A stretch of DNA of 64,000 nt from Chloracidobacterium sp. (GTDB taxonomy: Bacteria > Acidobacteriota > Blastocatellia > Chloracidobacteriales > Chloracidobacteriaceae): assembly GCA_025057975.1 (NCBI GenBank), contig JANWUV010000008.1, positions 1 to 64,000 on the forward strand, in the 5' to 3' direction. The position numbers and the translations under genes were made by a program. Below the pieces are notes generated by a model, which made no database searches, was not told where the DNA came from, and saw nothing but the letters and a program-made list of their open reading frames with translations. Positions 2,290 through 36,196 of the stretch are shown here, one piece after another. Every line of letters starts with the position of its first letter. Position 1 is the stretch's first letter.

Positions 2290-2295
2290 CAGTAA

Positions 2296-2598: not shown

Positions 2599-2623
2599 AT
2601 ACCGTTCCGGGCTTCTTCATATT

Positions 2624-3445: not shown

Positions 3446-3462
3446 CTAGAAAGGAGGATGAG

Positions 3463-3750: not shown

Positions 3751-3753
3751 TCA

Positions 3754-4113: not shown

Positions 4114-4130
4114 GATCGGGTTAGTAACTA

Positions 4131-4808: not shown

Positions 4809-4820
4809 CAACGAGATATT

Positions 4821-5709: not shown

Positions 5710-5715
5710 ACGACT

Positions 5716-6326: not shown

Positions 6327-6347
6327 TAGCCAAGGAGATATAAATTT

Positions 6348-6890: not shown

Positions 6891-6936
6891 GCCAAAATTT
6901 TACTAGTAGAGTGGGCTTTTAGTAGGTTAAGGTTAT

Positions 6937-7329
6937 ATGACAGATCCAATTAGCGATCTCCTAACAAGGATACGAAATGCAACTAGGGCCGGGCACTCTA
7001 AGGTAGATGTAAGCTACTCGAAGATAAAAGCGGAGATTGTAAGACTCCTACGAGAAGAAGGCTACATCAATAACTACAAGGTTACGGGTGAAGGCTATCA
7101 TCGAACAATACGTATCTATTTGAAGTACTCGCAATCCTCTGAACCTGTTATACAGAACCTCCAAAGGATATCTAAGCCTGGCAGGCGGGTCTATGTCGGA
7201 GTTGATGAAATACCTCGTCCGCTAAACGGACTCGGAATTTGTATACTAAGTACCTCTCAGGGCATACTCACTGGTAAGGAAGCCCGCCGAAAGCGCGTTG
7301 GTGGGGAACTTCTCTGTATAGTTTACTAA
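6937..7329 (+). CDS. rpsH: 30S ribosomal protein S8
   Basis: S8 organises the central domain of 16S rRNA and in E. coli represses the spc operon. TDPISDLLTRIRNA starts the protein; SKPGRRVYVGVDEIPRPLNG and GILTGKEARRKRVGGELLC are typical C-terminal blocks; 130 residues. It follows rplE directly because no S14 gene lies between them. Confidence 0.97.
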   Translation: MTDPISDLLTRIRNATRAGHSKVDVSYSKIKAEIVRLLREEGYINNYKVTGEGYHRTIRIYLKYSQSSEPVIQNLQRISKPGRRVYVGVDEIPRPLNGLGICILSTSQGILTGKEARRKRVGGELLCIVY

Positions 7330-7338
7330 GAGGAAAGT

Positions 7339-7905
7339 ATGTCACGAATAGGAAAAAAGATAGTGGATTTCTCAGGCCTTAATGTTAAGGCTGAGGATGG
7401 CTTTCTCACTATTGAAAAAGGCAATTTATCTAAGAAAATAAGAATTCCTGATGGAATTGAAGCTGATGTGTTAAATAATCAAATCAAGGTTACTGCGTTA
7501 GATCACAATAGTCGTAAGTTTCAAGGATTGATAAGGACGCTCATCAATAATGCTGTCATTGGCCTTTCCTCTAACTTCTCTGTGAGTTTAGATTTAGTTG
7601 GAGTAGGTTATAAGGTAGAACAAAAAGGTAATAAGTTAATACTCAACCTAGGGTTTTCACATCCAGTGGAGTATGAATTGCCAGAAGGAATAGACTGTGC
7701 AATAGAAAGGATGCAAAAATCAATTCAGCAATATCAGGCAACATTGACAGTAAGAGGTTGGGATAAGGAGAGAGTGGGGCAGGTAGCAGCTGATCTTGTA
7801 GCGCTCAAGCGCCCAGATGCGTATAAGGGTAAAGGTATACGCTATGCTGATCGGCCACTAGTCCTAAAGCCAGGTAAGTCCGGTACAAAGGGTAGCAAGA
7901 AATAA
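7339..7905 (+). CDS. rplF: 50S ribosomal protein L6
   Basis: L6 supports the factor-binding region of the large subunit. MSRIGKKIV opens it, LVGVGYKVEQKGNKLILNLGFSH marks the repeat-fold junction and RRPDAYKGKGIRY-like sequence (KRPDAYKGKGIRYAD) marks the C-terminal domain; 188 residues, slightly long because of a basic tail. GAGG lies just upstream of the ATG. Confidence 0.96.
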   Translation: MSRIGKKIVDFSGLNVKAEDGFLTIEKGNLSKKIRIPDGIEADVLNNQIKVTALDHNSRKFQGLIRTLINNAVIGLSSNFSVSLDLVGVGYKVEQKGNKLILNLGFSHPVEYELPEGIDCAIERMQKSIQQYQATLTVRGWDKERVGQVAADLVALKRPDAYKGKGIRYADRPLVLKPGKSGTKGSKK

Positions 7906-7910
7906 AACTG

Positions 7911-7940
7911 TATAAGGTATAAAGGCATAAAGGTATAATC
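7911..7940 (+). repeat. 8-bp tandem repeat in rplF-rplR spacer
   Basis: About three and a half copies of an 8-base unit close to TATAAAGG (TATAAGG, TATAAAGG, CATAAAGG, TATAAT) fill the spacer directly upstream of the shortened rplR gene. Confidence 0.7.
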
Positions 7941-7963
7941 GAGGTGACAAGGAGCTATAGGAG

Positions 7964-8269
7964 ATGAAAAGCCAAAGGTACCGTCTATGTGTTTTTCGGA
8001 GTTCTAAGCACATATATGCTCAAATAATAGATGATTCCCGTGGTATGACCCTTTGTGCTGCAAGTTCTCTAAAGCTTAGGGACTATCCTGAGAATCTTAA
8101 TGGTTTATCAAGGAAATTATATAGGGCAAGCCAAGTAGGTATGGAAATTGCAGAAAGAGCTAAGAAGCTGGGAATCAAGGATGTATACTTTGACCGCAAT
8201 GGGTACAAGTACCATGGCAGAGTAAAACAGCTAGCAGAGTCGGCACGACTAGGCGGTCTCAATTTCTAG
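7964..8269 (+). CDS. rplR: 50S ribosomal protein L18, short N-terminus
   Basis: L18 binds 5S rRNA with L5. The core is intact: [41 protein letters not shown] and the C-terminal [23 protein letters not shown]. At 101 residues it lacks most of the basic N-terminal arm of about 17-20 residues that precedes this point in typical L18 proteins of 117-122 residues. No in-frame upstream start was found to extend it. AAGGAG lies a few bases before the ATG. Confidence 0.92.
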
Positions 8270-8276
8270 AGGACCT

Positions 8277-8780
8277 ATGCAAAATAGAATTTTCCCGGAA
8301 ATTAATGATTCAGAGCTAAGAGACTTCATTGTCTCTATTAGACGTGTTACAAAAGTCGTAAAAGGTGGCAAGAACATGAGCTTTAGTGCTCTTGTTGTTG
8401 TTGGTAATGGGGATGGCGTCGCAGGTTTTGGTAATGGTAAGGCCTCTGAAGTACCTGCTGCTATAAAAAAAGGCATTGAATCAGCGAAGAAAAACTTGAT
8501 TAGAGTGAGTATAACTAATGGTACACTCCCTCATGAAGTGCTAGGTGTTTTTGGTGCAGGTAAGGTCTTGATAAAGCCTGCTAAGGAAGGTAAGGGAATT
8601 ATTGCTGGAGCCACGCTCCGAGCAGTTCTACAAGTCCTTGGTGTTCGCGATGCAGTTACTAAAGTGCTCGGCTCTCGTAATCCTCATAACATCGTCCGAG
8701 CAGCCTTTGAAGGGCTTTCTAGGGTTCGCTCAAAAGAGAAAGTTGCCTTGCTAAGAGGTAAAAGCCAATCTGACTTATAA
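8277..8780 (+). CDS. rpsE: 30S ribosomal protein S5
   Basis: S5 guards decoding accuracy at the mRNA entry side. It has the double-stranded-RNA-like N-terminal domain (RRVTKVVKGGKNMSFSALVVVG) and the C-terminal GKGIIAGATLRAVLQVLGVRD block; 167 residues. The gene starts seven bases after rplR. The next gene is rplO; no rpmD (L30) coding sequence fits in the 47-base gap. Confidence 0.96.
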   Translation: MQNRIFPEINDSELRDFIVSIRRVTKVVKGGKNMSFSALVVVGNGDGVAGFGNGKASEVPAAIKKGIESAKKNLIRVSITNGTLPHEVLGVFGAGKVLIKPAKEGKGIIAGATLRAVLQVLGVRDAVTKVLGSRNPHNIVRAAFEGLSRVRSKEKVALLRGKSQSDL

Positions 8781-8827
8781 TCATAAAGTCTAACTAACTC
8801 ATATCAAGCGCTGGAGTAGAGACGATA

Positions 8828-9043
8828 ATGCTTGGGCTTAGTACCCTTCCAAAGATTGAAAGGAAAGTAAAGAAGAGAGTAGGGAGAGGTCCTGGTTCAG
8901 GGATTGGTAAAACAGCTGGACGAGGGACAAAAGGACAAAAGTCCCGTTCTGGTTATGTGTCAAAGCGAGGTTTTGAGGGAGGGCAAATGCCCCTTCAGAG
9001 GAAGCTTCCAAAACGAGGTTTCACTAGAAGGAATAAGGCTTAG
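8828..9043 (+). CDS. rplO: 50S ribosomal protein L15, N-terminal part only
   Basis: The 71 residues match only the N-terminal half of L15, the part that threads into 23S r[31 protein letters not shown] and [20 protein letters not shown]. Bacterial L15 is normally about 145 residues with a globular C-terminal domain; here a TAG ends the frame right after RRNKA. The 96 bases before secY are too short to hold the rest. A GGAG precedes the ATG. It may be a functional minimal L15 or a decayed gene. Confidence 0.85.
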
Positions 9044-9066
9044 CATTTCCTTAACTACAATCTGAT

Positions 9067-9108
9067 AACTGTTACAGTAAGTTGATGCTTATATGGGGCG
9101 TAACAGTT
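9067..9108 (+). repeat. Inverted repeat in rplO-secY spacer
   Basis: AACTGTTAC at 9067-9075 is perfectly complementary to GTAACAGTT at 9100-9108, with a 24-base loop. It occupies the position where the missing C-terminal half of L15 would be expected. There is no T-run, so it is not an obvious terminator. Confidence 0.55.
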
Positions 9109-9139
9109 TCATAGTACAGAATCTCCTCTTGGTCAAGAA

Positions 9140-10567
9140 ATGAAAAAGGTCGAAGAGTTAAGACAGTTTATAACAAGTGTAGTAAGTTCAAAAGATGTAA
9201 GAAGCAGAGTGATTTTTACCTTACTAGTATTACTTTTATATAGGTTAGGTAGCCATGTTCGTGTGCCAGGAATAGATCAGGATAAATTAAAGTCAATATG
9301 GGAAACTCTCCAGGGCTCTCTGGTTGGCGTTCTAGACTTATTTTCTGGCGGTAACTTAAAAGTTATATCAGTATTTGCGCTAGGTATAACGCCGTATATA
9401 ACGGCTTCAATTGTCATACAATTGCTTACCGTTGCTATAGCACAGTTGAAAAGATTACAGGAGGAAGGCGAGGCAGGGAGACGTCAAATCAATCAGTACA
9501 CGAGATATCTGACCATACTCCTATCTATATTTCAATCTACGGCAATCAGCTTTTGGATGTTATCTCAACCGGGGTTGGTAAGTATATCGTCTAGAATGTT
9601 TCTCCTGGTATCAGTTATAGCCTTGACCACAGGAACAGCAATTGTCATGTGGATGGGGGAGCAGATATCGGAGAGAGGTATTGGAAATGGTATAAGCTTG
9701 CTTATATTTGCAGGTATAGTTGTTAGATTACCTTCGATAATTGTACAATTTACTGAGAGACTCGGAAGTGATCCTATTTCTGCATTAGAGAGCCTACTTG
9801 TGGCTATGCTCTTGCTGCTTATCGTAGCACTCATAGTATTTGTCGAAAAAGCATACCGTCCGATACCAATAGAACATACAAGGCGAAGAGAAATAGGAGT
9901 GTCTTCGAAGTCATATCTGCCATTGAGAATTAATATGTCGGGTGTAGTACCTGTCATATTTGCCTCTTCTTTATTGGCGTTTCCGATAACGGTTACTCAG
10001 TTTGTAAGCATAAACTCCTCTGGAATTTATGAATGGCTGACGAAAATCTTACGCTCCGGTCACCCGATATATGAATTAGTCTTTATTATGTGTATTGTAT
10101 TCTTTTCTTTTTTCTATGTCTCAGTTATTTTTGATGTACAGGATGTATCTAATAATCTTCGAAAATTTGGCAGCTATGTACCAGGTGTAAGGCCTGGTAA
10201 ATCAACTGCTGAATACCTGGATTCTATAGTAATGAAGCTTACATTTGTTGGGGCTATATACTTATCATTTATTTGCTTTGTTCCGCAGTTTATAGCTAGT
10301 GGACTAGATGTTGGAGAGATACCGTTTATCGGTGAGTGGCTTTATGCTAATATAACATCAAACTCTGCCTTGTCATGGATAGTGAAAGGGTTCGGCTATA
10401 CTTTCTACTTCGGCGGGACATCCTTGCTTATAGCTGTCGGAGTATCAATAGACACTGCTCAGCAATTAGAGGCTCGTCTGATAACTAAGAAGTATGAGCT
10501 TTTAGGGAGTACGGGTCGAAGGTTTAGGGGACAGCGCTTTTTGCAAGAAAGTGGCTACGTTAAGTGA
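9140..10567 (+). CDS. secY: Sec translocon channel subunit SecY
   Basis: SecY forms the protein-conducting pore in the cytoplasmic membrane. Ten hydrophobic segments can be traced. Signatures include SGGNLKVISVFALGITPYI, the cytoplasmic loop RLQEEGEAGRRQINQYTRYL, GERIGNG-type GEQISERGIGNGISL, and the C-terminal GGTSLLIAVGVSIDTAQQLEA. At 475 residues it is somewhat longer than usual. No clear Shine-Dalgarno precedes the ATG. The gene is AT-rich like its neighbours. Confidence 0.97.
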   Translation: MKKVEELRQFITSVVSSKDVRSRVIFTLLVLLLYRLGSHVRVPGIDQDKLKSIWETLQGSLVGVLDLFSGGNLKVISVFALGITPYITASIVIQLLTVAIAQLKRLQEEGEAGRRQINQYTRYLTILLSIFQSTAISFWMLSQPGLVSISSRMFLLVSVIALTTGTAIVMWMGEQISERGIGNGISLLIFAGIVVRLPSIIVQFTERLGSDPISALESLLVAMLLLLIVALIVFVEKAYRPIPIEHTRRREIGVSSKSYLPLRINMSGVVPVIFASSLLAFPITVTQFVSINSSGIYEWLTKILRSGHPIYELVFIMCIVFFSFFYVSVIFDVQDVSNNLRKFGSYVPGVRPGKSTAEYLDSIVMKLTFVGAIYLSFICFVPQFIASGLDVGEIPFIGEWLYANITSNSALSWIVKGFGYTFYFGGTSLLIAVGVSIDTAQQLEARLITKKYELLGSTGRRFRGQRFLQESGYVK

Positions 10568-10584
10568 AAGTGGCTATGTTAAGT
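10547..10584 (+). repeat. 19-bp tandem duplication at secY/adk junction
   Basis: GAAAGTGGCTACGTTAAGT (10547-10565) is followed directly by GAAAGTGGCTATGTTAAGT (10566-10584), differing at one base. The first copy encodes the last residues of SecY; the second copy contains the probable adk ATG. Confidence 0.85.
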
Positions 10585-11289
10585 GAAAGACCTGTTGTAG
10601 TAATCCTAATAGGCCCTCCTGGCTCAGGAAAGGGAACTCAATCAGCAAGACTAAGCGCTGCGCTTACCTTACCAAAAATCTCGACTGGTGATATTCTTCG
10701 ATCCTATGCTTCCAACGAAGGCCCGCTCTCTGAAAAGCTATCCAAGATTCTTGCTTCTGGCGCACTAGTCCCGGATGATATACTAGCTTCCATCATTACA
10801 GAGCGATTATCCTGCTCTGATTGTGAGAACGGCTTTATACTTGATGGTTATCCAAGGAACCTAGACCAAGCTATCTTTCTAGAAAAGCTTCTAACGAAAA
10901 AAGGAAGTAAGCTTATCGTAATTGAAATAGTAGTTCCTGAGAGTGTTCTTGTGAAAAGGGTAACAGGTAGGTTTTCTTGTAAATCCTGTGGAGCTATATA
11001 CAATCAGTATTTTGCAAAGCCGAAGCTTGAAAGTATGTGTGATCAGTGTGGCGGTTCTGAGTTTTACTATCGTGTAGATGATAAGGAATCAGTTATACTT
11101 GAAAGACTAAAGTCATATTCACTTCAAACACTTCCTCTTGTTGATTTTTACAGTGATCAGGATGCGTTATGTAAAATAGATGGTAATCAGAACTTCGAAG
11201 ATGTTTATAAAGACATACTCTCTTGTATCTATAAAAAAGTTGCTGAAGTGCCTAGAGATGATTATATCAAAGACGCCTTATCAGATTGA
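10576..11289 (+). CDS. adk: Adenylate kinase
   Basis: Adenylate kinase interconverts ATP + AMP and 2 ADP in the cytosol. The P-loop is GPPGSGKGTQ, the AMP-binding part contains KISTGDILR and GFILDGYPRNLDQA, and the LID carries a Cys4 zinc site (CKSCGAIYNQ and CDQCGG), the form common in Gram-positive and many thermophilic bacteria. I use the ATG at 10576; a GTG at 10564 overlaps the secY stop. The start codon lies in the second copy of the 19-base duplication. Length is 237 residues from that ATG. Its 3' end overlaps map by 32 bases. Confidence 0.94.
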   Translation: MLSERPVVVILIGPPGSGKGTQSARLSAALTLPKISTGDILRSYASNEGPLSEKLSKILASGALVPDDILASIITERLSCSDCENGFILDGYPRNLDQAIFLEKLLTKKGSKLIVIEIVVPESVLVKRVTGRFSCKSCGAIYNQYFAKPKLESMCDQCGGSEFYYRVDDKESVILERLKSYSLQTLPLVDFYSDQDALCKIDGNQNFEDVYKDILSCIYKKVAEVPRDDYIKDALSD

Positions 11290-12010
11290 AAAAATGCACA
11301 CAGCTGGTAAATACTTAGCGGAACTTATAAATGTCTTGAAGGAGAATGTTATACCAGGCATAACAACATCGAGGCTGAATGATCTTGCTGAGGAATGGCT
11401 GAGGCGCAAAAACCTGTATTCACCGTTTAAGGGCTATCGCGGTTATCCTGCTAGTATATGTGTTTCAGTGAACGAACAGGTTGTTCATGGTATTCCGACA
11501 AGTAGGGTAATCAAGGAAGGAGATATTGTTAGTATAGATGCAGGGGTTGTCTTTGAGGGATATGTAGCTGACGCTGCGACTACAGTACCGGTTGGAGAAA
11601 CTTCAGAGGAGTTACGAAAACTACTAAAAGTTACAGAATCATCATTATATCATGCTATAAATAAAATGGTAGAGGGAAATCGTTTGTATGATATTACTTA
11701 TGCAATTCAGTCATATGTAGAGCCGTACAATTATGGCTTAGTCAAGGATTTTTGTGGTCATGGTGTTGGACGAAAGATGCATGAAGATCCACAAGTGCCT
11801 AACTGTGGACACCGTCCTAATACTGGCCCGCGCCTGAGATGTGGTTGGGTTTTGGCAATAGAACCCATGGTCAATCTAGGTACAGCCTCTGTTAGAGTTG
11901 AGAAAGACGGATGGACTGTTGTTACAAAAGATGGCAAACCTTCAGCCCACTTTGAGCACACTGTTGCTATAACTCCGAATGGACCACTCGTACTAACGGA
12001 ACACTCATAG
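11258..12010 (+). CDS. map: Methionine aminopeptidase type I
   Basis: Removes the initiator methionine from nascent proteins. The start MIISKTPYQIEKMHTAGKYL matches the family, and that ATG lies within the end of adk. Metal ligands are visible: SIDAGVVFEGYVADAA, HGVGRKMHEDPQVPN and IEPMV. The 250-residue length is typical. Further upstream in-frame starts would add a non-homologous leader inside adk and are rejected. The secY-adk-map-infA order is the common one. Confidence 0.94.
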   Translation: MIISKTPYQIEKMHTAGKYLAELINVLKENVIPGITTSRLNDLAEEWLRRKNLYSPFKGYRGYPASICVSVNEQVVHGIPTSRVIKEGDIVSIDAGVVFEGYVADAATTVPVGETSEELRKLLKVTESSLYHAINKMVEGNRLYDITYAIQSYVEPYNYGLVKDFCGHGVGRKMHEDPQVPNCGHRPNTGPRLRCGWVLAIEPMVNLGTASVRVEKDGWTVVTKDGKPSAHFEHTVAITPNGPLVLTEHS

Positions 12011-12038
12011 TAGAGTTTGAATAAAGAGAGGAACCTGC

Positions 12039-12257
12039 ATGCCTAAAGAAGATGCGATAGAAGTTCCAGCTTTTGTATTGGAAGCACTACCGAATGCAAC
12101 GTTTCGTGTTGAATTAGAGAATAAGCATGTGGTCCTTGCACGTATATCGGGAAAGATGCGTAAAAATTTTATAAAAATCTTACCTGGCGACAAAGTCTTA
12201 GTTGAGCTTTCGCCTTATGATCTAACTAAGGGAAGGATTATTTACCGTTATAAATGA
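12039..12257 (+). CDS. infA: Translation initiation factor IF-1
   Basis: IF-1 occupies the A site of the 30S subunit during initiation. The OB-fold signatures [28 protein letters not shown] and [14 protein letters not shown] are intact; 72 residues is exact for the family. GAGG lies upstream of the ATG. Confidence 0.97.
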
Positions 12258-12269
12258 GGAAAACGGATC

Positions 12270-12383
12270 ATGAAAGTGAGGGCATCTGTAAAAAAAATAT
12301 GCAAGTCTTGCAAAGTAATTCACAGATTCGGCGTTGTTCGAGTTATCTGCACTAATCCAAAACACAAGCAAAGACAAGGATAA
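12270..12383 (+). CDS. rpmJ: 50S ribosomal protein L36
   Basis: This 37-residue protein reads [19 protein letters not shown] and continues through [16 protein letters not shown]. It keeps the three cysteines and histidine of the zinc-binding L36 form. It lies 12 bases after infA, with GAGG in front of the ATG. Confidence 0.95.
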
Positions 12384-12408
12384 GTCTCAACTGCACGGGA
12401 AGTGGTTT

Positions 12409-12792
12409 ATGGTACGTATTGCTGGTGTTGATCTTCCAGAGAATAAGAGGGTAGACATAGCTTTGACATACATTTACGGGATAGGACGTCCTCTTGCAGC
12501 TAAAATACTTGATACAGCAAATGTAGACCCTAGTATTAAGATACATAACCTTTCGGAAGAAGAACTAGGGCGTATAAGAGCTGTTATTGATAGTTCAGTA
12601 GTTGTCGAGGGAGATCTTAGAAAGCAAGTTCAGATGGATATAAAGCGGTTGATGGAGATTCAGTGCTACCGGGGGTTAAGGCATCGAAAGAATCTTCCAG
12701 TTCGTGGACAGAGAACGCATACAAATGCGAGAACACGTAAGGGACCAAGACGTGCAACTATAGCAAAGAAGAAAGCACCTGGTAAGAAATGA
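12409..12792 (+). CDS. rpsM: 30S ribosomal protein S13
   Basis: S13 sits at the top of the 30S head and contacts the P-site tRNA. The chosen ATG gives [26 protein letters not shown]; an upstream in-frame start at 12334 would overlap rpmJ and add an unrelated leader. [26 protein letters not shown] is the conserved C-terminal block. Length is 127 residues. The purine stretch CGGGAAG provides a weak ribosome-binding site. Confidence 0.95.
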
Positions 12793-12814
12793 ATTTTGAT
12801 TTGTTGGAGAAGTT

Positions 12815-13234
12815 ATGACAAAAAAAATAATAAAAGCAAAAAGCACCGAGAAGCGAAAGAGTTATAAGAAAAAAGAGAAGAAAAATATTCCTCAAGGAAT
12901 TGTCTACATTCAAGCTTCTTTCAATAACACTATAGTTAGTATAACAGACCTAAATGGCAATGTGCTGACCGCTAGTAGCTCTGGTGCACTGGGATTTAAG
13001 GGCTCAAGAAAAGGAACACCTTTTGCCGCTCAACAAGCTGCAGCAAAAGCAGCTTCGATGGCACGAGAGTTAGTAGGAATGCAATCCTGTGAAGTTAGGG
13101 TGAGCGGTCCTGGCTCGGGGCGTGAGTCAGCAATCAGAGCAATACAAGCAAGCGGCATAGAAGTAAAAGTGATCCGTGATGTTACACCAATCCCGCACAA
13201 TGGTTGTCGTCCTCGTAAAAGGCGTCGAGTTTGA
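12815..13234 (+). CDS. rpsK: 30S ribosomal protein S11
   Basis: S11 lies on the platform of the 30S subunit near the E site. A lysine-rich N-terminal arm (residues 3-24) precedes the conserved [32 protein letters not shown] and [18 protein letters not shown]; the protein ends [11 protein letters not shown]. Length 139 residues, slightly long because of the arm. Confidence 0.97.
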
Positions 13235-13249
13235 GTTATGTAGGCTTCG

Positions 13250-13294
13250 CAAGGAATGTGACCAAGGAACATGACTGTGACAAAGGAATGTGAC
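13250..13294 (+). repeat. 13-bp imperfect tandem repeat in rpsK-rpsD spacer
   Basis: CAAGGAATGTGAC (13250-13262) is followed directly by CAAGGAACATGAC (13263-13275); a third copy with one extra A lies at 13281-13294 after five bases. Another CAAGGAG follows and is close to the rpsD ribosome-binding region. Confidence 0.75.
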
Positions 13295-13320
13295 TAGGCA
13301 AGGAGAAGGAGTGAGAGTGT

Positions 13321-13959
13321 ATGGCGCGGTATCGTGGTCCGGTTTGCCGGCTTTGTCGCCGAGAGGGTATTAAGCTTTTCCTAAAAGGAGATCGCTGCTA
13401 TAAGCCATCTTGTCCAATCGAAAAAAGAGGAACATATCCTCCTGGACAGCATGGAAGAGAGACGAAGAGAGGAAAGCTGACTGGGTATGGTGAACAGCTA
13501 AGAGAAAAGCAAAAGGTAAAGCGAATATATGGAATATTAGAAAATCAATTCAAGGGATACTTTGAGAAGGCTTCCCGTCAGCGTGGCATAGTAGGGGAAA
13601 ACCTTCTTTCTCTTCTTGAGAGACGGCTAGATAATGTCGTTTATAGAATAGGATTTGCTACTTCGAGAGCCCACGCTAGGCAACTGGTTAGCCATGGGCA
13701 TGTGAAAGTAAACAACAGGAAGGTAAATATTCCATCTTTTCAAGTTAAGGTAGGTGATCTTATTTCAATAAAAGAAGAAAGCGCCTCAAACCCTCATATT
13801 CTTCAGTCATTCGCGACAGCAGTTGGGAGAGGGCGTCCAAGTTGGTTGGAAGTTGAGAATAAGAATGTTCTTGCAGCGCGCGTAATTTCTTTACCAAAAA
13901 GAGAAGATATTACTCAGCCTATTAATGAGCAAATGATAGTTGAGCTTTACTCGAAGTAA
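13321..13959 (+). CDS. rpsD: 30S ribosomal protein S4
   Basis: S4 nucleates 16S rRNA folding. It is the zinc-containing form: C9, C12, C26 and C31 (CRLC and CYKPSC). The S4 RNA-binding domain is at about residues 95-160 ([31 protein letters not shown]). Length 212 residues. GGAG precedes the ATG after the repeat-bearing spacer. In E. coli S4 is the repressor of this operon; nothing here proves that role. Confidence 0.97.
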
Positions 13960-13989
13960 GAAGAAGTTGTCTACTCAGGTGGTGTAGAT

Positions 13990-14982
13990 ATGTTGATTCC
14001 TTTCCAACGTCCTAGGAAGTTAGAGTGTGACTTAGAAACCTTGACGGATACTTATGGTTGTTTTTATGCACAGCCCTTTGAAAGGGGTTTCGGAACAACA
14101 ATAGGAAACAGCATTCGCCGTGCCTTATACTCATCTATAGAAGGTGCTGCTATAACTGCTGTTAGGATAGAGGGTGTTTTGCATGAGTTTTCCTCCATAC
14201 CAGGCGTCGTAGAAGATGCTACTGATATCATCCTAAATCTGAAAAGAATACCCTTCAAGATGCCACCAGGAAAGCTAGTTTCGACTTTGCGGTTGAGTCG
14301 GAATGTTGCTGGTGAGGTTTATGCCCAAGATATCGAGACTGAGGAAGGTGTTGAAATTCTCGATAAGAGCATGTACATTGCTACCGTTAGTGAGGGTGGA
14401 AATCTCTCAATTGAAATGCGTTTGAAGATGGGAAGAGGTTATGTACCAGCAGATAGGAATTTTGATGAAGATCTAGCAATTGGATACATACCCATTGATT
14501 CAGTCCACTCACCAATTAAGCGTGTACGCTGTAATGTTGAGGCAGCTCGGTTGGGACAAGATACAGATTATGAAAAGCTTATACTAGAGGTTTGGACAAA
14601 CGGAAGTATTAGTCCTGCTGATTCAATTGGATTAGCAGCGAAACTAGTCAAGGACCACATGTCCATATTTATAAACTTTGAAGAAACTGAGGTTGAAGTT
14701 GAACCGGTAAAAATTCCTGAACGAAAGTCTATTGTTAACGAAAACTTGGACCGTTCTATAGAAGAGTTAGAACTAAGCGTACGCTCTTATAACTGCCTAA
14801 AGAATGCTGATATAAAGACTGTTCGAGAACTTGTGCAAAAGAACGAGCAAGAAATGCTCAAGACTAAAAATTTCGGACGTAAATCGTTAAACGAAATAAA
14901 GGAAATCCTTGCCGCAATGGGGTTAGGGCTTGGTGCTATCTTTGATGAAGAAGGAAATATTATAGGGTATAGAAATGATTAG
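13990..14982 (+). CDS. rpoA: RNA polymerase alpha subunit
   Basis: Alpha dimerises to start RNA polymerase assembly and binds activators and UP elements. The N-terminal domain has [21 protein letters not shown]; the flexible linker is around residue 240; the C-terminal domain shows [20 protein letters not shown] and [18 protein letters not shown]. Length 330 residues is standard. AGGTGG lies before the ATG. Confidence 0.97.
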
Positions 14983-15022
14983 GCAGATTGTTGTATAGAT
15001 TGTGATAGTGGAGAGCGATAGT

Positions 15023-15478
15023 ATGAGGCACCGTCACGCACACAGAAAACTGGGTCGTACTTCTGCGCATAGGAAGTCAATGTTGAGGAATCTAGCAACT
15101 TCGCTAGTTCTCAAAGAGAGAATTATAACAACTGTACAAAAGGCAAAAGAACTTCGCCCATTTATTGAGCGAGCTGTAACATTAGGCAAGCGAGGTGATT
15201 TACATTCGCGCCGATTGGCGGCCGCTTATTTTCATGCAGGTAATCAAAACTGGAATGAGAATCCAAAACATTGTAAGCGCGGTGCAGAAAGGACAGCTGG
15301 CGTAGCAGCTCTATCAAAGCTCTTTGACGTTATATCCCCTCGATATCTTGATAGAAGAGGCGGCTATACTAGGATACTAAAACTTGGCCACCGAAAAGGT
15401 GATGGAGCTGAAATGGCGATTATTGAATTTGTTGAGTCGGAAAGCAATCGAGAAACTGATAAAAAAGTTACTCCATAG
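15023..15478 (+). CDS. rplQ: 50S ribosomal protein L17
   Basis: L17 lies near the exit tunnel. The ATG at 15023 ([21 protein letters not shown]) gives the family N-terminus; an upstream in-frame start at 15002 is rejected. [23 protein letters not shown] closes the conserved part. Length is 151 residues, longer than the common 120-130, with extra sequence around residues 65-90 ([21 protein letters not shown]). Last gene of the alpha cluster. Confidence 0.95.
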
Positions 15479-15546
15479 ATTCTTATCTCATTATTTGATG
15501 TAATACAGATGAATTGTTTCTTGAAGTTTCAGTACAGGAATTTTCC

Positions 15547-15575
15547 CTCCAACTGTATTGGAGCTAAGTTTTTTT
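15547..15575 (+). terminator. Possible intrinsic terminator after rplQ
   Basis: CTCCAA (15547-15552) and TTGGAG (15558-15563) form a six-pair stem with a five-base loop, followed after five bases by seven T. The stem is short and the T-run is not adjacent, so it may be weak or allow readthrough into accB. Confidence 0.35.
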
Positions 15576-15591
15576 GAGCGGAGGCGACTCT

Positions 15592-16077
15592 GTGAACATA
15601 AAAGAAATAAAGGAATTAATAGAACTGGTGAATGAAAAACAAATTGCAGAATTAGAAATTGACAAAGCAGGACTTAAGCTTCGCATTAAGACCATCTATG
15701 CTGTAGAAGGTAAAGGAATAGTTATTTCCCAGCCTTCTACAGCGGACCTTCACGCCTATGCCCCACAACCCCCTGAAGAGAAAATTCAAGTTGCTAAAGA
15801 AGTTATAAAAGAAGAAGCTTCAGAAACTGAAGAAGATCTACATATCATCTATTCGCCAATAGTAGGGACTTTTTATCGCGCTCCGAGTCCAGATTCAGCA
15901 CCATTTGTTGAAATAGGTAGTCACGTGTCCCCAGGTACTGTTTTATGTATTATTGAGGCTATGAAACTTATGAATGAAATTGAATCTGACATAGCTGGAG
16001 AAGTTGTAAAAATTCATCAAGAAAACGGTAAACCAGTAGAATTTGGTCAACCTTTATTTTCACTAAGAAGGAAATAG
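15592..16077 (+). CDS. accB: Biotin carboxyl carrier protein of acetyl-CoA carboxylase
   Basis: AccB carries biotin between the carboxylase and carboxyltransferase halves of acetyl-CoA carboxylase, the first step of fatty acid synthesis. The C-terminal biotinyl domain has EAMKLMNEI with the biotinylated lysine at residue 125; the middle is acidic and proline-rich, as is usual. I choose the GTG at 15592 because GCGGAGG lies at the right distance; a TTG at 15574 would add six residues. Product 161 residues. accC follows seven bases later. Confidence 0.93.
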
Positions 16078-16084
16078 CTTATCC

Positions 16085-17419
16085 TTGTTTAGAAAAGTTC
16101 TAATTGCTAACCGAGGTGAAATAGCTTGCCGTGTTATCTGGGCTTGTAAGGAACTCGGGCTGAAAACAGTGGCTGTGTACTCTCAGGCTGATGCAGAATC
16201 GTTGCATGTACGTTTTGCAGACGAAGCCGTTTGTATTGGTCCTCCGCCCTCACGGCAAAGCTATCTCAATATACCAGCTGTTATTAGCGCTGCGGAAGTA
16301 ACAAATGCTGACGCAATTCATCCGGGTTACGGCTTCCTATCGGAGAATGCTCGTTTTGCAGAAGTTTGCGAAGCCTGCAACATAACGTTCATCGGGCCGC
16401 CGCCAAGCGCCATTAGAACAATGGGTGATAAAGCGACAGCAAAAGCGACGATGAAAGCTGCTGGTGTCCCGGTTGTACCGGGAAGCGAGGGAATTATCGA
16501 GTCCCTAGATGCAGCACAGGCTATTGCCTCAGAAGTAGGGTATCCTCTAATCATCAAAGCGACTGCTGGCGGTGGCGGACGTGGCATGCGTGTCGTTAGG
16601 TCTGCTGAAGAACTTCAAATAGGCTTTGAATCAGCTCGCTCGGAAGCTGCAGCGGCTTTCGGTAATCCGGGAGTATACATAGAGAAATATATTGAGAACC
16701 CACGTCACATAGAAATTCAAGTATTGGCGGACAAGCACGGTAATATAGTTCATTTAGGAGAGCGTGATTGCTCTATTCAGCGTAAGAATCAAAAACTCGT
16801 TGAAGAAGCTCTCAGTCCTATCGTTTCACCTGAAATACGCTCGAAGATGGGTGAAGCAGCAATAAACGCCTGTCGAGGTGTCAACTATGTCAATGCTGGA
16901 ACAGTTGAGTTTATTGTTGATGAAGACTTAAATTTTTATTTCATGGAGATGAATACTCGAATCCAAGTTGAACATCCTGTTACAGAATTCATAACCGGTG
17001 TTGACTTAGTGCGCGAACAAATTCTTATTGCTGCTGGAGAAAGGTTAAGTGTCTCACAATCAGGCTTAGACTTTAATGGTCACGCCATAGAATGTCGAAT
17101 AAATGCTGAAGATCCAGAAAAATTTACACCTTCTCCAGGCCAGATTACCTCGCTGAATATACCAAGCGGCCCAGGTGTCCGCGTAGACACACACATATAC
17201 ACAGGTTATAAAGTGCCACCCTATTACGATTCCTTGATAGCCAAGGTAATTGTTCATGCGCCTAATCGCGATCAAGCCATTGCCCGCATGAGAAGGGCAC
17301 TTGAAGCCTTCGTAATAGAAGGTATCAAGACAACAATACCTTTGCACCAGAAGATTATGGAGAGTAAAACTTTCAAGTCTGGCCATTTTTCAACTCGTTT
17401 TCTTGAAAATTTTTCCTAA
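16085..17419 (+). CDS. accC: Biotin carboxylase of acetyl-CoA carboxylase
   Basis: ATP-dependent carboxylation of biotin on AccB. It starts with [27 protein letters not shown] is diagnostic. The ATP-grasp part shows [33 protein letters not shown] and [15 protein letters not shown] with catalytic residues. Length 444 residues is normal. Its last 47 bases overlap the 3' end of the oppositely transcribed cca gene. Confidence 0.96.
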
Positions 17420-18722
17420 CTAATTTTTCAAGCAGTAACTGAGCTTCTGATATGGTTAAGACTTCACCTTCTATCTGAAATTCTTGGAGTTGCCTAAGGA
17501 TACTTTTTACCTTTGGTCCAGGTTTAATTCCCTTGCTTAAAACGTCATGACCTGTAATAAGTGACTGAGAATTTCCCGAAGAAAGATCTTTTAGTATTTC
17601 TTCAAGCCAGAATAAAAATTCTTCTGAAGATTCCAGATAAAGAGCCTTACAGAGATAATTAAGTAATTCTAAGTCAATAATTCTTCCTAATCGTCTGAAA
17701 CAAATTATGGCAATTTGTCTATATAATCTTTGATAAAATATTTTGTAAGGTATAAGGTGTACTTTTCTTAGACCGATTACTTGACGTCTGACAGGATATC
17801 CTTGAACAGTGTGAATACCAAGTTCATCTAGAAACTTGACTAGATTAGGTAATGAAAGTCTAATTCCAATAATTGCTAATAGGATGGAAATCCTTTTTGG
17901 AATACAAAGAGCTTCAACTACAACCTTACCTCTTTCAAGAGACTTCAATGTATAATTCCAATTTGTATCTTGAGAATAAGGTGTATTCATTGTTGGTGAA
18001 CTTTGTAATTCTATAAGGCTAGGAAAGAGTCTTTGAATAACACAAAGCTTTTGTAGATATCTTAATCCAATAGAAGGATTTGGCGAAAACAATAATATTT
18101 TTTCAAACTCTTTATATACTCTATCTTTTGGAAGATCTTCAAGGGCAGTTTCTCTGCAGAGTTTGATTGTTTCACTTGTTATACTCAAATTATATCTCGA
18201 AGCTAACTGTGCTGCCCTAAGAACTCTCAAGGAATCTTCCTTAAATGTCTTTGGATTTGCTACTCTTAATCTTCGGTTTACTAAGTCATTGACTCCACAT
18301 AAAGGATCTATTATGGATTCGGTTAAGGGATCTTGTAGTATGGCATTAATAGTAAAATCACGACGGCTGACAGCTTCCTCAAATGTCATCCAAGGATCAC
18401 CTTCAATAAGGAAACCGCGATGCCCTCTACTACGCTTTGATTCACGACGTGGAAGAGAAACATCTACCTCTACAGGAGCGGCAGCTTTCGGTTGCAGCTT
18501 GTAAACAGCAAACTGTTCTCCAACAACGTTAATCTTTCCAAACTTTTCAAGTAACTCCTTAAGAGTTTGGCTTGGTAAGGCATAGACTTCAAGATCATAA
18601 TCCTTTATCGAGTATCCAAGAAGACGATCTCTGACACAGCCGCCGACAAGGAATCCTTTTCCTCCAAGTAATCTGATTGCCTTACAAATTTCTATAAGCC
18701 AATCAGGTAAAACCGAAAACAT
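17373..18722 (-). CDS. cca: CCA tRNA nucleotidyltransferase / poly(A) polymerase family
   Basis: Class II nucleotidyltransferase that adds or repairs the 3' CCA of tRNA, or a related polymerase. The catalytic core is at the N-terminus: [13 protein letters not shown] (about residues 24-36), DYDLEVY with the metal-binding acidic residues (41-47), then RRDFTINAI and the [12 protein letters not shown] neck motif. The C-terminal third is helical and poorly conserved. Length 449 residues. It lies downstream of the HAD gene on the same strand (54 bases) and is AT-rich. CCA-adding and poly(A) activity cannot be told apart by eye. Confidence 0.85.
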
Positions 18723-18776
18723 AATAACATTTCCTAATCTTAGCCTACCAACATCTGTTTATCTTTTTAAGCCTTT

Positions 18777-19451
18777 CTAAAGAGCTTTGATATGTTCTAA
18801 ACTTAACTCAGTGATACAACTGATAACAATATCGGCTTCCCTCAAATATTCCTGACTATGTGAATTTGTCACACCAACGCAATACATGCCAGCTGCCTTG
18901 GCTGCCTCAATGCCCGCATGTGAATCCTCTATAACGAGGCATTCAGCACCAGTCAGCTTTGGTCTACTGTTCAAACATTCATTCAAACGCTGAAGTGTTC
19001 GTAGGTAACCTTCGGGCGATGGCTTACAATTTTGAACATCCTCAGCACTAGTAATCGTCATAAAGTTTTCGAGTAAGTTGTACAATGTAAGGATATCTAT
19101 GATTTCCTGTTTTGCTGCGCCGGAGCAGATCGCTAGGGTAAAATTCAACGAAGCTTCCCTTATCCATTCAACGATCCCAGGGAAAAGTTTGATACTTGTT
19201 AGACGAGAGTAAAAAAGTTGAGACTTTCTTTTGACTAACTTAGTAAGTTTCTCAACAGTGATTTCTCTACCATCTCTGATAAATGCTTGCTTAAAACAAG
19301 TTTTGTCATCTAAAGCTAGATATACTTCATTGTACAGTTGGCGGTTTATATTTATTCCTTCTTCTAAGAGAGTCTGCCTGAGACAGAAGAAATGAAGGTC
19401 CTCAGTGTCTGCAATAACTCCGTCGAAATCAAAGATTATTGCCCGTACCAT
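18777..19451 (-). CDS. HAD-superfamily hydrolase, phosphoglucomutase-like
   Basis: A 224-residue haloacid-dehalogenase-fold phosphatase. Motif I is FDFDGVIADTE, with the nucleophilic aspartate and general acid; motif II is CSGAAK; motif III is the lysine in KPSPEGYL; motif IV is VIEDSHAGIEAAKAAGM. The helical cap between residues 18 and 85 is the beta-phosphoglucomutase/phosphoglycolate type. The substrate cannot be named. Probably co-transcribed with cca. Only 38 bases separate its start from the divergent gene at 19490. Confidence 0.85.
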   Translation of the reverse strand: MVRAIIFDFDGVIADTEDLHFFCLRQTLLEEGININRQLYNEVYLALDDKTCFKQAFIRDGREITVEKLTKLVKRKSQLFYSRLTSIKLFPGIVEWIREASLNFTLAICSGAAKQEIIDILTLYNLLENFMTITSAEDVQNCKPSPEGYLRTLQRLNECLNSRPKLTGAECLVIEDSHAGIEAAKAAGMYCVGVTNSHSQEYLREADIVISCITELSLEHIKAL

Positions 19452-19489
19452 AGCACAGTCTAATAAATAGCATATCAGGAGGAATTTTT

Positions 19490-19891
19490 ATGAACTGCCT
19501 TAGTATCATTTTAACACATACTCTCTTTGCTGTCGTTACAGTACCTGCAATAGCCCAGGGAAGCGTTGGTTTAGGACGAGCGCCGCGCACGGCAAGCGAA
19601 ATCAAGCGAAATCTTAAAACAATTCTCGTTGTCAAGTCCGTCAATCCTGAGCTGTACACTATTGAGGCGACAGATGAGATTACAGGTGATGAACTAACCT
19701 ATCGCGTGTCCCGAAATGCCAAAATCACAACTGAAAAAGGTTTTCCTATCATTGGCCATAGCAAAGAAATTCGTCTCGCTGACATTAAGCCGGGACAAAG
19801 GCTTGAAGTAGTCTACCGAGAATCCTTACCGACTCAACTCACCCGTATTACTTTGCTCAAGGACAAGGCCAAGATAGAGCAACGCCCCTAG
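19490..19891 (+). CDS. Small secreted protein of unknown function
   Basis: A 133-residue protein with an N-terminal hydrophobic segment ending VPAIAQG, which looks like a Sec signal peptide cut after AIA. The rest has alternating strand-like segments (TILVVKSVNPELYTIEATD, RLADIKPGQRLEVVYRE), suggesting a small beta-barrel of the DUF5666 or OB type; I do not recognise the family with certainty. AGGAGG gives a strong ribosome-binding site. Base composition is intermediate. Its end overlaps the end of deoC by four bases on the opposite strand. Confidence 0.75.
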   Translation: MNCLSIILTHTLFAVVTVPAIAQGSVGLGRAPRTASEIKRNLKTILVVKSVNPELYTIEATDEITGDELTYRVSRNAKITTEKGFPIIGHSKEIRLADIKPGQRLEVVYRESLPTQLTRITLLKDKAKIEQRP

Positions 19892-20568
19892 TATCGAGAT
19901 ATTGCTCGCCTATCCTCAATAATGGCGACGCCGTTGCTTGTTCCAAGGCGCGTTGCCCCAGCTGCGATCAGTCGCTCAGCAGTCGCTCGGTCTCGAATCC
20001 CACCAGATGCCTTGACACCGAGCTTATCGCCTACGGTCTGGCGTAACAACTCGATATCCTGCACCGTGGCGCCGCGGGAACTAAAACCAGTGGATGTCTT
20101 AACAAAATCCCCACCAGCGGATTGAATAATTCGGCAGGCTTTGATCTTTTCATCTTCACTGAGTAGGGCCGTTTCAATGATGACTTTGCAGATTGCTTGA
20201 TGAGCATGTACTACATCAACGACAGCACGAATATCCGCCTCAACGAACGGCCAATCGCCTTCCCGTAACTTACCAATTGCCAGTACCATGTCTATTTCAC
20301 GAGCGCCACTCTCGAGCGCCTGCCGCGCCTCATAGACCTTAACTTCTGTTGTCGTTGCACCCAGCGGGAAGCCAATGACAGTACAGACAGTCGTCTTTGC
20401 CTGCGAGGCTAGTTCCCGCGCCGCCAATGAAACCCAAATGGGGTTTACGCAAACAGCTGCAAAGCCGTACGTTTTGGCTTCCGCGCAAAGTTGTATAATG
20501 TCAGCCTGCGTCGCTTCTGGTCTAAGGCAGGTGTGATCAATCAACGCCGCCAGTGCTCCGGTGTCCAT
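19888..20568 (-). CDS. deoC: Deoxyribose-phosphate aldolase
   Basis: Splits 2-deoxyribose 5-phosphate to acetaldehyde and glyceraldehyde 3-phosphate. The TIM-barrel motifs are intact: LIDHTCLRPEAT, CVNP, VIGFPLGA, EIDMVL with D93, VKTSTGF with the Schiff-base lysine K157, and KASGGIR with K186. The 226 residues match the short bacterial form. It lies 24 bases after the HEAT-repeat gene on the same strand and near the nucleoside phosphorylase at 21961, which feeds the same salvage pathway. Confidence 0.96.
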   Translation of the reverse strand: MDTGALAALIDHTCLRPEATQADIIQLCAEAKTYGFAAVCVNPIWVSLAARELASQAKTTVCTVIGFPLGATTTEVKVYEARQALESGAREIDMVLAIGKLREGDWPFVEADIRAVVDVVHAHQAICKVIIETALLSEDEKIKACRIIQSAGGDFVKTSTGFSSRGATVQDIELLRQTVGDKLGVKASGGIRDRATAERLIAAGATRLGTSNGVAIIEDRRAISRY

Positions 20569-33433: not shown

Positions 33434-33549
33434 GGGATGGCCGCCGCAGGCCAACGACGACCATCCCAGGACGACCCACAGCGCAAAGACAGCCTGAACT
33501 GGGCATCAACGCCGGCGTGCGCCTGCCTCGCTGAAACGTTCTACCCTGC

Positions 33550-34308
33550 TTACTGCAAGGGCGGCGGTGTATCGGTTGGGGGCGGCGGCGGCAACTGTAC
33601 CGGCGGCGCGGAGGTGTCACCCGCTTCCGAAGTGTGTTTCGTTAACCCCAGTCGCAGCAGCGCCGGGGCGGTTGGTGTACCAGTTTCCTTTATCCCGTTG
33701 GCACGCTGAAAGTTACGCATTGCTTCACGAGTACGCTCATCGTACCGTCCCGTGATCTCGCCTTCATAGAAACCGGCCTCCTTGAGTTTTTCCTGAATCT
33801 CACGGGTGCGGGCTTCAGGAATGACAAGGTTGCGCGGCGGGCGGTACGGTGCGACTTGCGGCGTACGGTAGGCGTACGCCGTCGCCCGGTTGCGCCGCAT
33901 AGAGCGGCCGCGTCGCGCGAAGCGTCCGCGCCGACCGCGCACGCGATACCCACGGACGCTGCGGCTGCGCGCGACACGTCCGCGTCGGGCACGGAGGCCG
34001 CGCCCACGGATACGGCGACCGCGTAATCGCCGAACTCGTACACTGCGGCTGCGCGCGCGTGCGGCGCGGCCGCGACGGTTGCGTACCGTCACCCGCCGAC
34101 CGCGTGCGTTGCGGGCGCGAGTGCTTTGGGCGCGACTGCGCCGTGTGCGGCGGTTACGTGCGCCAGTTGTGCGTCGCTTCTGCGGCCGCGCTATTTCCTC
34201 GGCATGAGCTTCCATCGGCGCAATCTGGTCCGGGAAGCCTGTTCCCGCCAGTAAACAGGCAATGATTAGCGCCATCTTGGCGCATATGGTTCGACTCCAT
34301 TGCGGCAT
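33550..34308 (-). CDS. Secreted arginine-rich protein with peptidoglycan-binding domain
   Basis: A 252-residue protein in three parts. Residues 1-36 form a signal peptide (MALIIACLLAGTGF, possible internal start at 34275). Residues 42-145 are an extremely arginine-rich, low-complexity tract with recurring RRGR, RSVR and RGRR units. Residues 158-215 are a PG_binding_1-like domain (TREIQEKLKEAGFYEGEITGRYDERTREAMRNFQRANG). A proline-rich tail ends it. The design suggests a cell-wall protein with a polycationic segment that could bind teichoic, DNA or other polyanions; this is inference. Confidence 0.8.
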   Translation of the reverse strand: MPQWSRTICAKMALIIACLLAGTGFPDQIAPMEAHAEEIARPQKRRTTGARNRRTRRSRAQSTRARNARGRRVTVRNRRGRAARARSRSVRVRRLRGRRIRGRGLRARRGRVARSRSVRGYRVRGRRGRFARRGRSMRRNRATAYAYRTPQVAPYRPPRNLVIPEARTREIQEKLKEAGFYEGEITGRYDERTREAMRNFQRANGIKETGTPTAPALLRLGLTKHTSEAGDTSAPPVQLPPPPPTDTPPPLQ

Positions 34309-34402
34309 ATGAGGGCTTCCTCGCTAGAAAAAGTTATCACTTGCGCCGTCACGCCCAACGTCCCTCCGCCTCAGTTCAGATGACTGATGGATCAGGCATG
34401 AC

Positions 34403-36196
34403 TTACGATTTGAACGATTCTCGACGTTTAATGACGACTACCGTGATATCGTCTTCCGGTATCGCGCCGGATGCAAACGCCAGAGCCTGTTCAACAACCG
34501 TTTCACAAATTTCACGGGCGGGCAGATGCACGCACCGGCGGATGACGGCTTCAAGGCCATCATAGCCGAAGCAATGTCCGATGCGGTTTCTCAGTTCGGG
34601 AATGCCGTCGCTGTAAAGCACGAGAACATCCTGCGGGTCGAGTTGGTGGGTGACGACCGGAAGCCGCCCCAGCGTCGGACGGACGCCAAGCGGATAGTGC
34701 TCAAGCTCAAGGTCGGACAGGGCGCGTGACGCGGCGCGGTACAGTAGCGGGTAGGGATGCCCAGCGTTGCTTACCGTCACCGTGCCCGTCGGTAGGTCCA
34801 GCAAAACATAGCAGAACGTCATCAGGTCACGGCGCGTCCCATTCTCATAGATGAGCTTGTTCATCGTCTGCATCACGCTTTGTGGGTCACAGGCGACGCC
34901 AAGTTGGTTGAACAGCGCACCTTTGGCAAGCGCCATCAGCAGACCCGACGCCACGCCGTGGCCGGAAGCGTCGCCGATGACGACCGCGAGTCGGTCCTCG
35001 CCGACTTTGATGTAGTCGTAATAATCCCCACCGATGTCTTCCGCCGGACGCGACAGACCGGCGATGTCAAAACCCGGCGCAACCGGCTCAGACTGAGGCA
35101 ACATTGAGGCCTGAATCCGAGCCGCCAACGCAATTTCCGTCTGGAGGCGCTGCCGCTTGATCTGTTCTTCAAGCAGGTAGGTATTTTCAATCTTGATCGC
35201 CGCCACGCTGGCGATGGTGGTCAACACTTCGAGGTCGTCCGGCGTAAAGCGGCGCTGGTAGGGATTTTCCACATAAATCAGCCCGTAGAGTCGCTCTCGA
35301 AAGACAAGCGGAACGCACATCACGGAGCGAATATCGCCGAGCGCAATCGAGTGACTGCCGGCAAACCGTGGGTCGTGGCGGGCGTCCGAGGTCAACACAG
35401 CCGACTTGGTGGTGAGAACGCGCTCTGTGATGCTTCGACACACCATCGCTTCACAAGGTGGAATCTCCCCAGCCTTGGTGCGCGCCACGCGACAAGCCAG
35501 TTCCTGCGAAGCGTTGTCATAGGTCAGGAGAAAGCCGCGCTCCGCCGGAAGCGATTCAAACACCAGCGTCATAATGTCCCGCAGGGTGTCGTCGAGACCC
35601 GCATTCGAAAGCAATGTGACGCCGACTTTGCTGACCAGCGCCAGTAAGTCGGGGCGGTGTCTCTGAAACTTGGCACCCAGGTTGGTTTCCGGCGCGGCGC
35701 GCGTGGCGTCCGCTGTCGTCGGTCGAGCCTCACCCGGGACAAGGGTCGGTGGTGGGTAACGCAAGCCGCCGGAACTGCGTTCAAACGCGCGGTGGACAAT
35801 CTCATCCGCCGTACGGACATCGCCCAGCCCGATTTGCGCTTCAGGCACGGCCGTGGAGGAAGTCGCAGAGTAGGTCACCGACGGAGCCGCTGCCGGCGAG
35901 AAGCGATGTTCAGCCACGAGTTCAATATCGGTTTCGCCAATCCGAAAGCGGTCGCCAGCGCGAAGCCGAATCGGGCTCGTCACACGCTGCCCTCGATAAT
36001 ACGTGCCATTGGCGCTGTTGAGGTCCTCCAAAACATAGGTTTCGCCGTCCTGCCGGAGCGCGGCATGCAAGCGCGAGGCAAAGGAGTCGGCCACCATGAT
36101 GTCCGCCCGGACGCTGCGCCCAAGGGTGTAACGCGGCTTAACGAGCAAAATCCGGTGCGGCGGCGCATTGTGCGAATGAATCACGAGGGAGTGCAT
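34403..36196 (-). CDS. FHA-GAF-PP2C (SpoIIE/RsbU-type) phosphatase
   Basis: A 597-residue cytoplasmic regulator. The FHA domain is at about residues 1-100 (LGRS, SRLHAAL, NSANGTYYRGQ) and should bind phosphothreonine. A GAF sensory domain is at about 190-335 (ERGFLLTYDNASQELACRVA, RSVMCVPLVFRERLYGLIYVENP). A SpoIIE-type PP2C domain fills the C-terminus from about 380 (GGDYYDYIKVGEDRLAVVIGDASGHGVASGLLMAL; VLYSDGIPELRN; DDITVVVIKR). Such proteins dephosphorylate anti-anti-sigma factors or other Ser/Thr phosphoproteins. No partner gene lies next to it. Confidence 0.93.
   Translation of the reverse strand: MHSLVIHSHNAPPHRILLVKPRYTLGRSVRADIMVADSFASRLHAALRQDGETYVLEDLNSANGTYYRGQRVTSPIRLRAGDRFRIGETDIELVAEHRFSPAAAPSVTYSATSSTAVPEAQIGLGDVRTADEIVHRAFERSSGGLRYPPPTLVPGEARPTTADATRAAPETNLGAKFQRHRPDLLALVSKVGVTLLSNAGLDDTLRDIMTLVFESLPAERGFLLTYDNASQELACRVARTKAGEIPPCEAMVCRSITERVLTTKSAVLTSDARHDPRFAGSHSIALGDIRSVMCVPLVFRERLYGLIYVENPYQRRFTPDDLEVLTTIASVAAIKIENTYLLEEQIKRQRLQTEIALAARIQASMLPQSEPVAPGFDIAGLSRPAEDIGGDYYDYIKVGEDRLAVVIGDASGHGVASGLLMALAKGALFNQLGVACDPQSVMQTMNKLIYENGTRRDLMTFCYVLLDLPTGTVTVSNAGHPYPLLYRAASRALSDLELEHYPLGVRPTLGRLPVVTHQLDPQDVLVLYSDGIPELRNRIGHCFGYDGLEAVIRRCVHLPAREICETVVEQALAFASGAIPEDDITVVVIKRRESFKS

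Follow-up and report, generated by a model that had tools for sequence, protein, structure and literature searches.

PG_binding_1 (PF01471) is a domain found mainly in exported proteins, and in SleB and SltB3 it is joined to a catalytic domain. Engineered polycationic endolysins combine a cationic peptide with a peptidoglycan-binding module, and in HxsA (TIGR03979) a low-complexity region precedes the PG_binding_1 domain. In the S41 PDZ proteases (CtpB, lmo1851 family), PDZ proteolysis is coupled to the same kind of domain, and PDZ-S41-PG-binding architectures are described in a PDZ survey (PMC6411480). The protein analyzed here carries the same domain as SleB and SltB3, but joined to a basic tract of predicted disorder and to nothing else. 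Its gene lies on the minus strand of the window, by which we mean the whole stretch of 64,000 nucleotides that was analyzed (Chloracidobacterium sp., contig JANWUV010000008.1). The features of the locus and the evidence for each are as follows:

33434-33467, minus strand: terminator-like stem of 14 pairs, 3' of the gene (pattern scan; weak, with 2 such stems in the region against 1.3 expected)
33550-34308, minus strand: gene of an Arg-rich PG-binding-domain protein of exported type, 252 aa (open reading frame, Pfam, 7/7 genus genomes, pN/pS)
33550-33618, minus strand: Pro-rich C-terminal tail, residues 231-252, and the stop codon (7-member genus alignment, pN/pS 0.17)
33670-33810, minus strand: PG_binding_1 domain, residues 167-213 (Pfam 51.9 bits; pLDDT >90; sequence matches to SleB and SltB3)
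33883-34182, minus strand: Arg-rich tract, residues 43-142 (46 Arg, no Asp or Glu; pLDDT mostly <50)
34201-34308, minus strand: signal-peptide-like N-terminus, residues 1-36, AHA before EE (sequence reading; AlphaFold helix 4-23)
34316-34322, minus strand: GAGGAAG, ribosome-binding-site-like, 7 nt 5' of the ATG (read from the sequence)
34403-36196, minus strand: FHA-GAF-SpoIIE protein, the upstream neighbor, same strand, 94 bp gap (Pfam)

The frame starts with ATG, and the N-terminus, read by eye, has a basic n-region, a hydrophobic stretch at residues 12-25 and AHA before EE at residues 34-38. This cleavage-like motif, together with the modeled helix 4-23, makes a signal peptide and export of the protein probable. 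The Pfam match to PG_binding_1 (E = 8.6e-14) was far above the curated cut-off of 23 bits, and this domain may bind peptidoglycan. A sequence search against solved structures returned SleB (6.4e-7) and SltB3 (about 1e-3), and the top rows of Foldseek were SltB3, SleB and CtpB, none of them with an E-value below 0.001. The AlphaFold model had a mean pLDDT of 62.5; the tract, mostly below 50, is predicted to be disordered, and the domain, above 90, to be well folded. None of the more specific families fitted: the SleB spore cortex-lytic enzyme model (TIGR02869) scored 41 bits over the domain only, with a cut-off of 236.5, HxsA membership was rejected at 39.6 bits over the domain (cut-off 121.65), and lmo1851_S41 (NCBIfam) was matched below its cut-off. 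The radical-SAM maturase TIGR03978, which we take to be HxsB, the partner of HxsA, was above its cut-off in none of the 7 genus genomes, its weak matches occurring likewise in all 14 control genomes. The Pfam scan revealed no lytic domain, and a phage endolysin was discarded as a candidate, the PHROGs matches being confined to the PG-binding domain.

The gene was found in all 7 genus genomes, the six relatives being 67-71% identical to the window protein. Averaged over the 21 pairs of the 7 members, pN/pS was lowest in the domain (0.09), followed by the C-terminal tail (0.17) and the linker (0.36), and highest in the tract (0.50) and the signal region (0.52), the tract value being rough because the alignment of low-complexity sequence is uncertain. 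Moreover, the third positions of Arg columns conserved in the genus vary, with all four CGN codons in use. This demonstrates that 33550-34308 on the minus strand is a real gene under coding constraint, and the doubt whether the frame is translated at all, which had been attached to the original prediction, is thereby dispelled. Tracts in the genus are 118-131 residues long with 41-50 Arg and only 1-4 acidic residues, and their R/(R+K) ratio is 0.96-0.98. They diverge both by substitution and by insertion or deletion, with 127 gap cells in the alignment; the composition is kept while the sequence drifts.

Counting this gene, the window has 50 longest-ORF gene models, in which the maximum of Arg per 100 aa was 46 in the window protein and 21 in the runner-up, with a mean Arg content of 7.9% in the remaining models. 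When the codons of all window genes were shuffled 200 times, not more than 23 Arg per 100 aa were reached, and a GC artefact as the sole cause of the Arg density was rejected. Arg runs in the tract do not exceed 2 residues, and of the 45 Arg-to-Arg spacings 42 are of 1-3 residues; Gly, Ser and Ala accompany the Arg. A tandem-repeat origin was also rejected, only a single weak 22-bp repeat in 2.3 copies being present; the tract is an Arg-rich mixture and not a homopolymer or a clear tandem repeat. The original prediction had described a polyarginine tract of about 100 Arg-dominated residues joined to a wall-type domain. The Arg dominance and the domain were confirmed (residues 43-142 with 46 Arg and without Asp or Glu; PG_binding_1), and the N-terminus, tract and Pfam match favor an exported-type polycation, while the term polyarginine does not apply. 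The antisense frame 33890-34207 on the plus strand is also Arg-rich and mirrors the CGN codons of the sense gene. It was rejected as a gene: at least one antisense frame is open across 126-234 codons in each of the 7 genus members, and its openness is thus no evidence for coding.

Within the class of the window, some match was present in 147 of 162 genomes, many of them to the domain alone. Family f6, which makes up 119 of the 162 genomes, had matches mostly limited to the domain, and one of its proteins (L052) has two domains without such a tract; an f1 genome (G007) matched only with a different short protein. The complete architecture, a search for which had been proposed with the original prediction, was observed in all 7 genus genomes and in families f1, f2, f3, f4, f7, f8 and f9. 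The phylum-wide profile search gave matches in 96 of 297 genomes, and many of the top ones outside the window's class belonged to f16. In the class containing f16, a second profile found matches in 137 of 151 genomes, a count that includes weak matches to longer proteins, the tract having been inspected at 53 loci of this class. The profile searches covered Acidobacteriota; one scan of genome contigs with the single protein, which reached beyond the phylum, found 3 relatives, and the plasmid collection contained no match to the window protein. With two homologues from HtrA-paired families as queries, the window gene was the best match in its own genome (1.1e-7 and 3.2e-13), which suggests that the members of the paired families are homologues, probably orthologues, of the window gene. 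The family so delimited has a hydrophobic N-terminus, a net basic tract and a C-terminal PG_binding_1-like domain, all of which are present in the window protein, and a two-PDZ HtrA gene directly upstream, which the window gene lacks; the latter is a homologue outside the HtrA pair.

The protease was recognized in the 20-kb neighborhoods of the homologues as a recurrent cluster of proteins of about 530 aa encoded just upstream of the gene. Two examples contained Trypsin_2 and two PDZ domains (Pfam), and one paired protease passed the NCBIfam model degP_htrA_DO with 432.5 bits (cut-off 416.2). Counting a pair where the protease gene was on the same strand and not more than 800 bp upstream of the open frame, with one locus per genome, a DegP/HtrA-type protease was found directly upstream in 62 of 90 homologue loci from two classes of the phylum, the loci being hand-picked from the better matches, not random, and the negatives including L164 (G160), probably a non-member, and L141 (G467), with only 76 bp of upstream sequence. 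Among families of the window's class, the pair was present in f3 (5/5), f4 (3/3) and f7 (8/9) and absent in f1 (0/8), f2 (0/4), f8 (0/1) and f9 (0/7). Under the other labels it was found in f16 (31/33), f84 (3/4), f85 (4/4), f69 (3/5) and f86 (2/2), and in the single loci of f82, f90 and f92; f88 had none in 2, with the protease about 1.1 kb further upstream in both loci. The median gap between the stop of the protease and the modeled start of the basic PG-binding gene was 126 bp. The adjacent HtrA was the top match of the genome in all 13 paired genomes checked, each with 2-6 HtrA matches (48 in total), using a query taken from one of these 13. Furthermore, nine pair loci of 20 kb, each with 14-19 gene models, had no HtrA place other than the one beside the gene in question. 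Since HtrA copies are few per genome and the pair recurs in two classes, this adjacency is not credible as chance, even allowing for the non-independence of related genomes. A first control, 23 other PG-binding loci without a flanking HtrA, was weak: they come down to about 16 separate places, and almost all of these belong to the genus of the window, which lacks the pair anyway, and the HtrA copy count was relied on instead. No fusion with an HtrA domain was detected by Pfam in a small chosen sample of 8 longer PG-binding proteins, and a C-terminal PDZ ligand was dismissed, the C-termini not being conserved as such across families.

The charge of the tract was compared in 85 homologues, namely the window protein and 84 of the 90 loci, after dropping L164, L177, L146, L153, L154 and L160, in which the domain pattern was not found. 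All 85 tracts were net positive (+4 to +47), 84 of them with at least +5, over lengths of 22-264 residues. The median net charge was +42 in f1, about +20 in f2, f8, f9 and f69, and +8 in f16, where the tail is short (median 32 residues). Family medians of R/(R+K) outside the genus ranged from 0.14 (one f82 case) to 0.88. The ratio showed a weak positive correlation with local GC (Spearman 0.25, p 0.02, among relatives that are not independent), yet the low-GC family f2 (GC 0.38) still had 0.62. Hence, of the tract conservation on which the original prediction had been made to depend, the basic character stood in the 7 genus genomes and in all homologues measured, and Arg itself did not: positive charge, not Arg, is the feature kept outside the genus, and the near-exclusive use of Arg together with the great tract length is particular to the lineage of the window.

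In the genus itself, the FHA-GAF-SpoIIE cluster was directly upstream in all 4 neighborhoods compared, and this gene and that of the Arg-rich protein are possibly co-transcribed. Five strong HtrA matches are present in the window's genome, and all lie more than 10 kb away from its matches to the PG-binding family. In an HtrA tree, two proteases of this genome, L105 and L106, group with the paired proteases found in the class of the window (support 91/94), but the branches are long, and no orthologue is named from it. The pair may have been split in f1 or may never have arisen in this family, and since it occurs in two classes, a split is the likelier course. Another short protein (L002, G000:C3:49708-49905, within a 147-aa open frame) also combines a hydrophobic N-terminus with a PG-binding domain of similar kind and has a counterpart match in all 6 other genus genomes, and a larger protein (L003, G000:C10:133916-134047) shows in translation two PG-binding-like repeats after a glycine-rich region. 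Large sortilin/BNR-type propeller-repeat proteins with PG_binding_1 in mid-protein are encoded at L183:1508-4018 (plus strand) and L186:1837-4275 (minus strand). At about 2000-20000 of the window, GC drops to about 40-45%, the rest of the contig being near 60%; the genes lying there include those of ribosomal proteins L2, S3 and S4, SecY, adenylate kinase and RNA polymerase alpha. As GC around rpoA was likewise 0.42-0.47 in every genus relative with a located rpoA (5 genomes), this low GC is a property of the genus and not contamination.

The reading we favor, though tentatively, is that of a sacculus-anchored periplasmic polycation that originated in an ancestral DegP/HtrA envelope-maintenance module and acquired an extreme Arg tract in Chloracidobacterium. 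The exported protein would sit on the diderm peptidoglycan by its PG_binding_1 domain, and its disordered, strongly basic tail would extend free into the periplasm. There it would most likely bind anionic partners, be they outer-membrane phosphate groups or envelope proteins that are acidic or unfolded, and might thus place or stabilize material at the sacculus, the site of protease action. The ancestral role would have been played with the DegP/HtrA-type PDZ protease encoded just upstream; in Chloracidobacterium the gene would have left its place beside the protease gene and the tail would have grown to about 120 residues with a net charge of +41 to +49, carried by Arg almost alone. Support comes from the domain, the predicted disorder, the charge in 85/85 homologues, the HtrA pair in 62/90 loci, the best-match result in 13/13 genomes, the queries with two paired homologues and the peptidoglycan of a named Chloracidobacterium: C. 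validum, according to PMC12816986, is Gram-negative and has an inner peptidoglycan wall, and this makes teichoic acid, one of the targets originally proposed, unlikely. Against it stand the absence of the pair in f1, f2, f8 and f9, the lack of conserved PDZ-ligand C-termini and the lack of an HtrA fusion among the 8 longer proteins scanned. In addition, one function for all tail lengths is not assured, given the short f16 tail. Since a DegP/HtrA protease is linked to the gene in other families, a scaffold or adaptor role in envelope protein quality control is suggested, and the phylum-wide gene neighborhood points to the same process, though not in the window's family. A stricter variant seems rather unlikely, namely that of a dedicated DegP/HtrA partner, a polycation on the sacculus that drew either the protease's substrates or the outer membrane to it and was later uncoupled in Chloracidobacterium, its tail becoming an extreme Arg brush. 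By analogy, the role that a fused PG-binding domain may play in cis in CtpB-type PDZ proteases might be filled in trans by such a partner, a comparison we regard as equally doubtful.

The fast change of the tract (pN/pS 0.50, 127 gap cells), its wide range of lengths and the weak rise of R/(R+K) with local GC would all suit a flexible, soluble link between signal sequence and wall domain, in which composition drifts and Arg accumulates without a specific ligand. We nevertheless consider such a spacer unlikely: a neutral one needs neither the net positive charge seen in all 85 homologues measured nor so few acidic residues (1-4 per 118-131 in the genus), and f2 keeps its Arg share at low GC. 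A nucleic-acid binder, similar to protamines or histone tails and acting on extracellular mat DNA or, if not exported, on the chromosome, would also match the composition (46 Arg per 100 residues, together with Gly, Ser and Ala); this is improbable in view of the export-type N-terminus, the PG-binding domain and the envelope-type protease pairing elsewhere, and our searches returned no nucleic-acid link of the protein. Polycations can disrupt membranes, and their combination with PG-binding modules is used in engineered lysins, but a secreted antimicrobial or adhesion factor is quite improbable: no lytic domain and no match in the plasmid collection were found, and the occurrence in 7/7 genus genomes, the domain match in 137/151 genomes of another class and the stable neighbor look housekeeping-like, not weapon-like. 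Finally, the more than 40 positive charges following the hydrophobic segment would, by the positive-inside rule, keep the tail in the cytoplasm if the N-terminal helix were a membrane anchor. The small-residue cleavage-like motif (AHA) seen by eye after the hydrophobic core speaks against this, as do the mostly exported nature of PG_binding_1 proteins and the periplasmic location of DegP-type proteases, and we give this topology hardly any weight. Returning to the sacculus-anchored polycation, the real gene, its basic tract, the PG-binding domain and the HtrA-linked homologues are much firmer than the mechanism built on them.

Overall, a protein family widespread in Acidobacteriota gains an anatomy, a distribution and a candidate partner. 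If the favored reading is true, envelope quality control in Acidobacteriota involves a polycation on the sacculus, which to our knowledge has no counterpart in model diderms. A basic-tailed, HtrA-linked PG-binding family was not found in the literature searched, from which subscription papers were mostly excluded, nor in the available parts of PMC6411480, PMC12816986 and PMC5900883. The PG_binding_1 domain is already known, and the family defined by sequence, with its basic tail and HtrA link, appears to be the new part. The coupling of PDZ proteolysis to a PG-binding domain has its precedent, by analogy, in the S41 proteases, in which protease and domain form one protein, whereas in the HtrA-linked homologues they are encoded by two neighboring genes and the protease is of DegP/HtrA type. 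HxsA has the same order of low-complexity region and domain, but the window protein has no His-Xaa-Ser repeats. Protamines and histone tails resemble the tract in Arg density and small residues, apparently a likeness of composition only, and differ from the window protein by its export-type N-terminus and PG-binding domain. The engineered polycationic endolysins share with it the cationic peptide and the PG-binding module; the window protein, however, is natural, has no lytic domain and is conserved across the genus and beyond.
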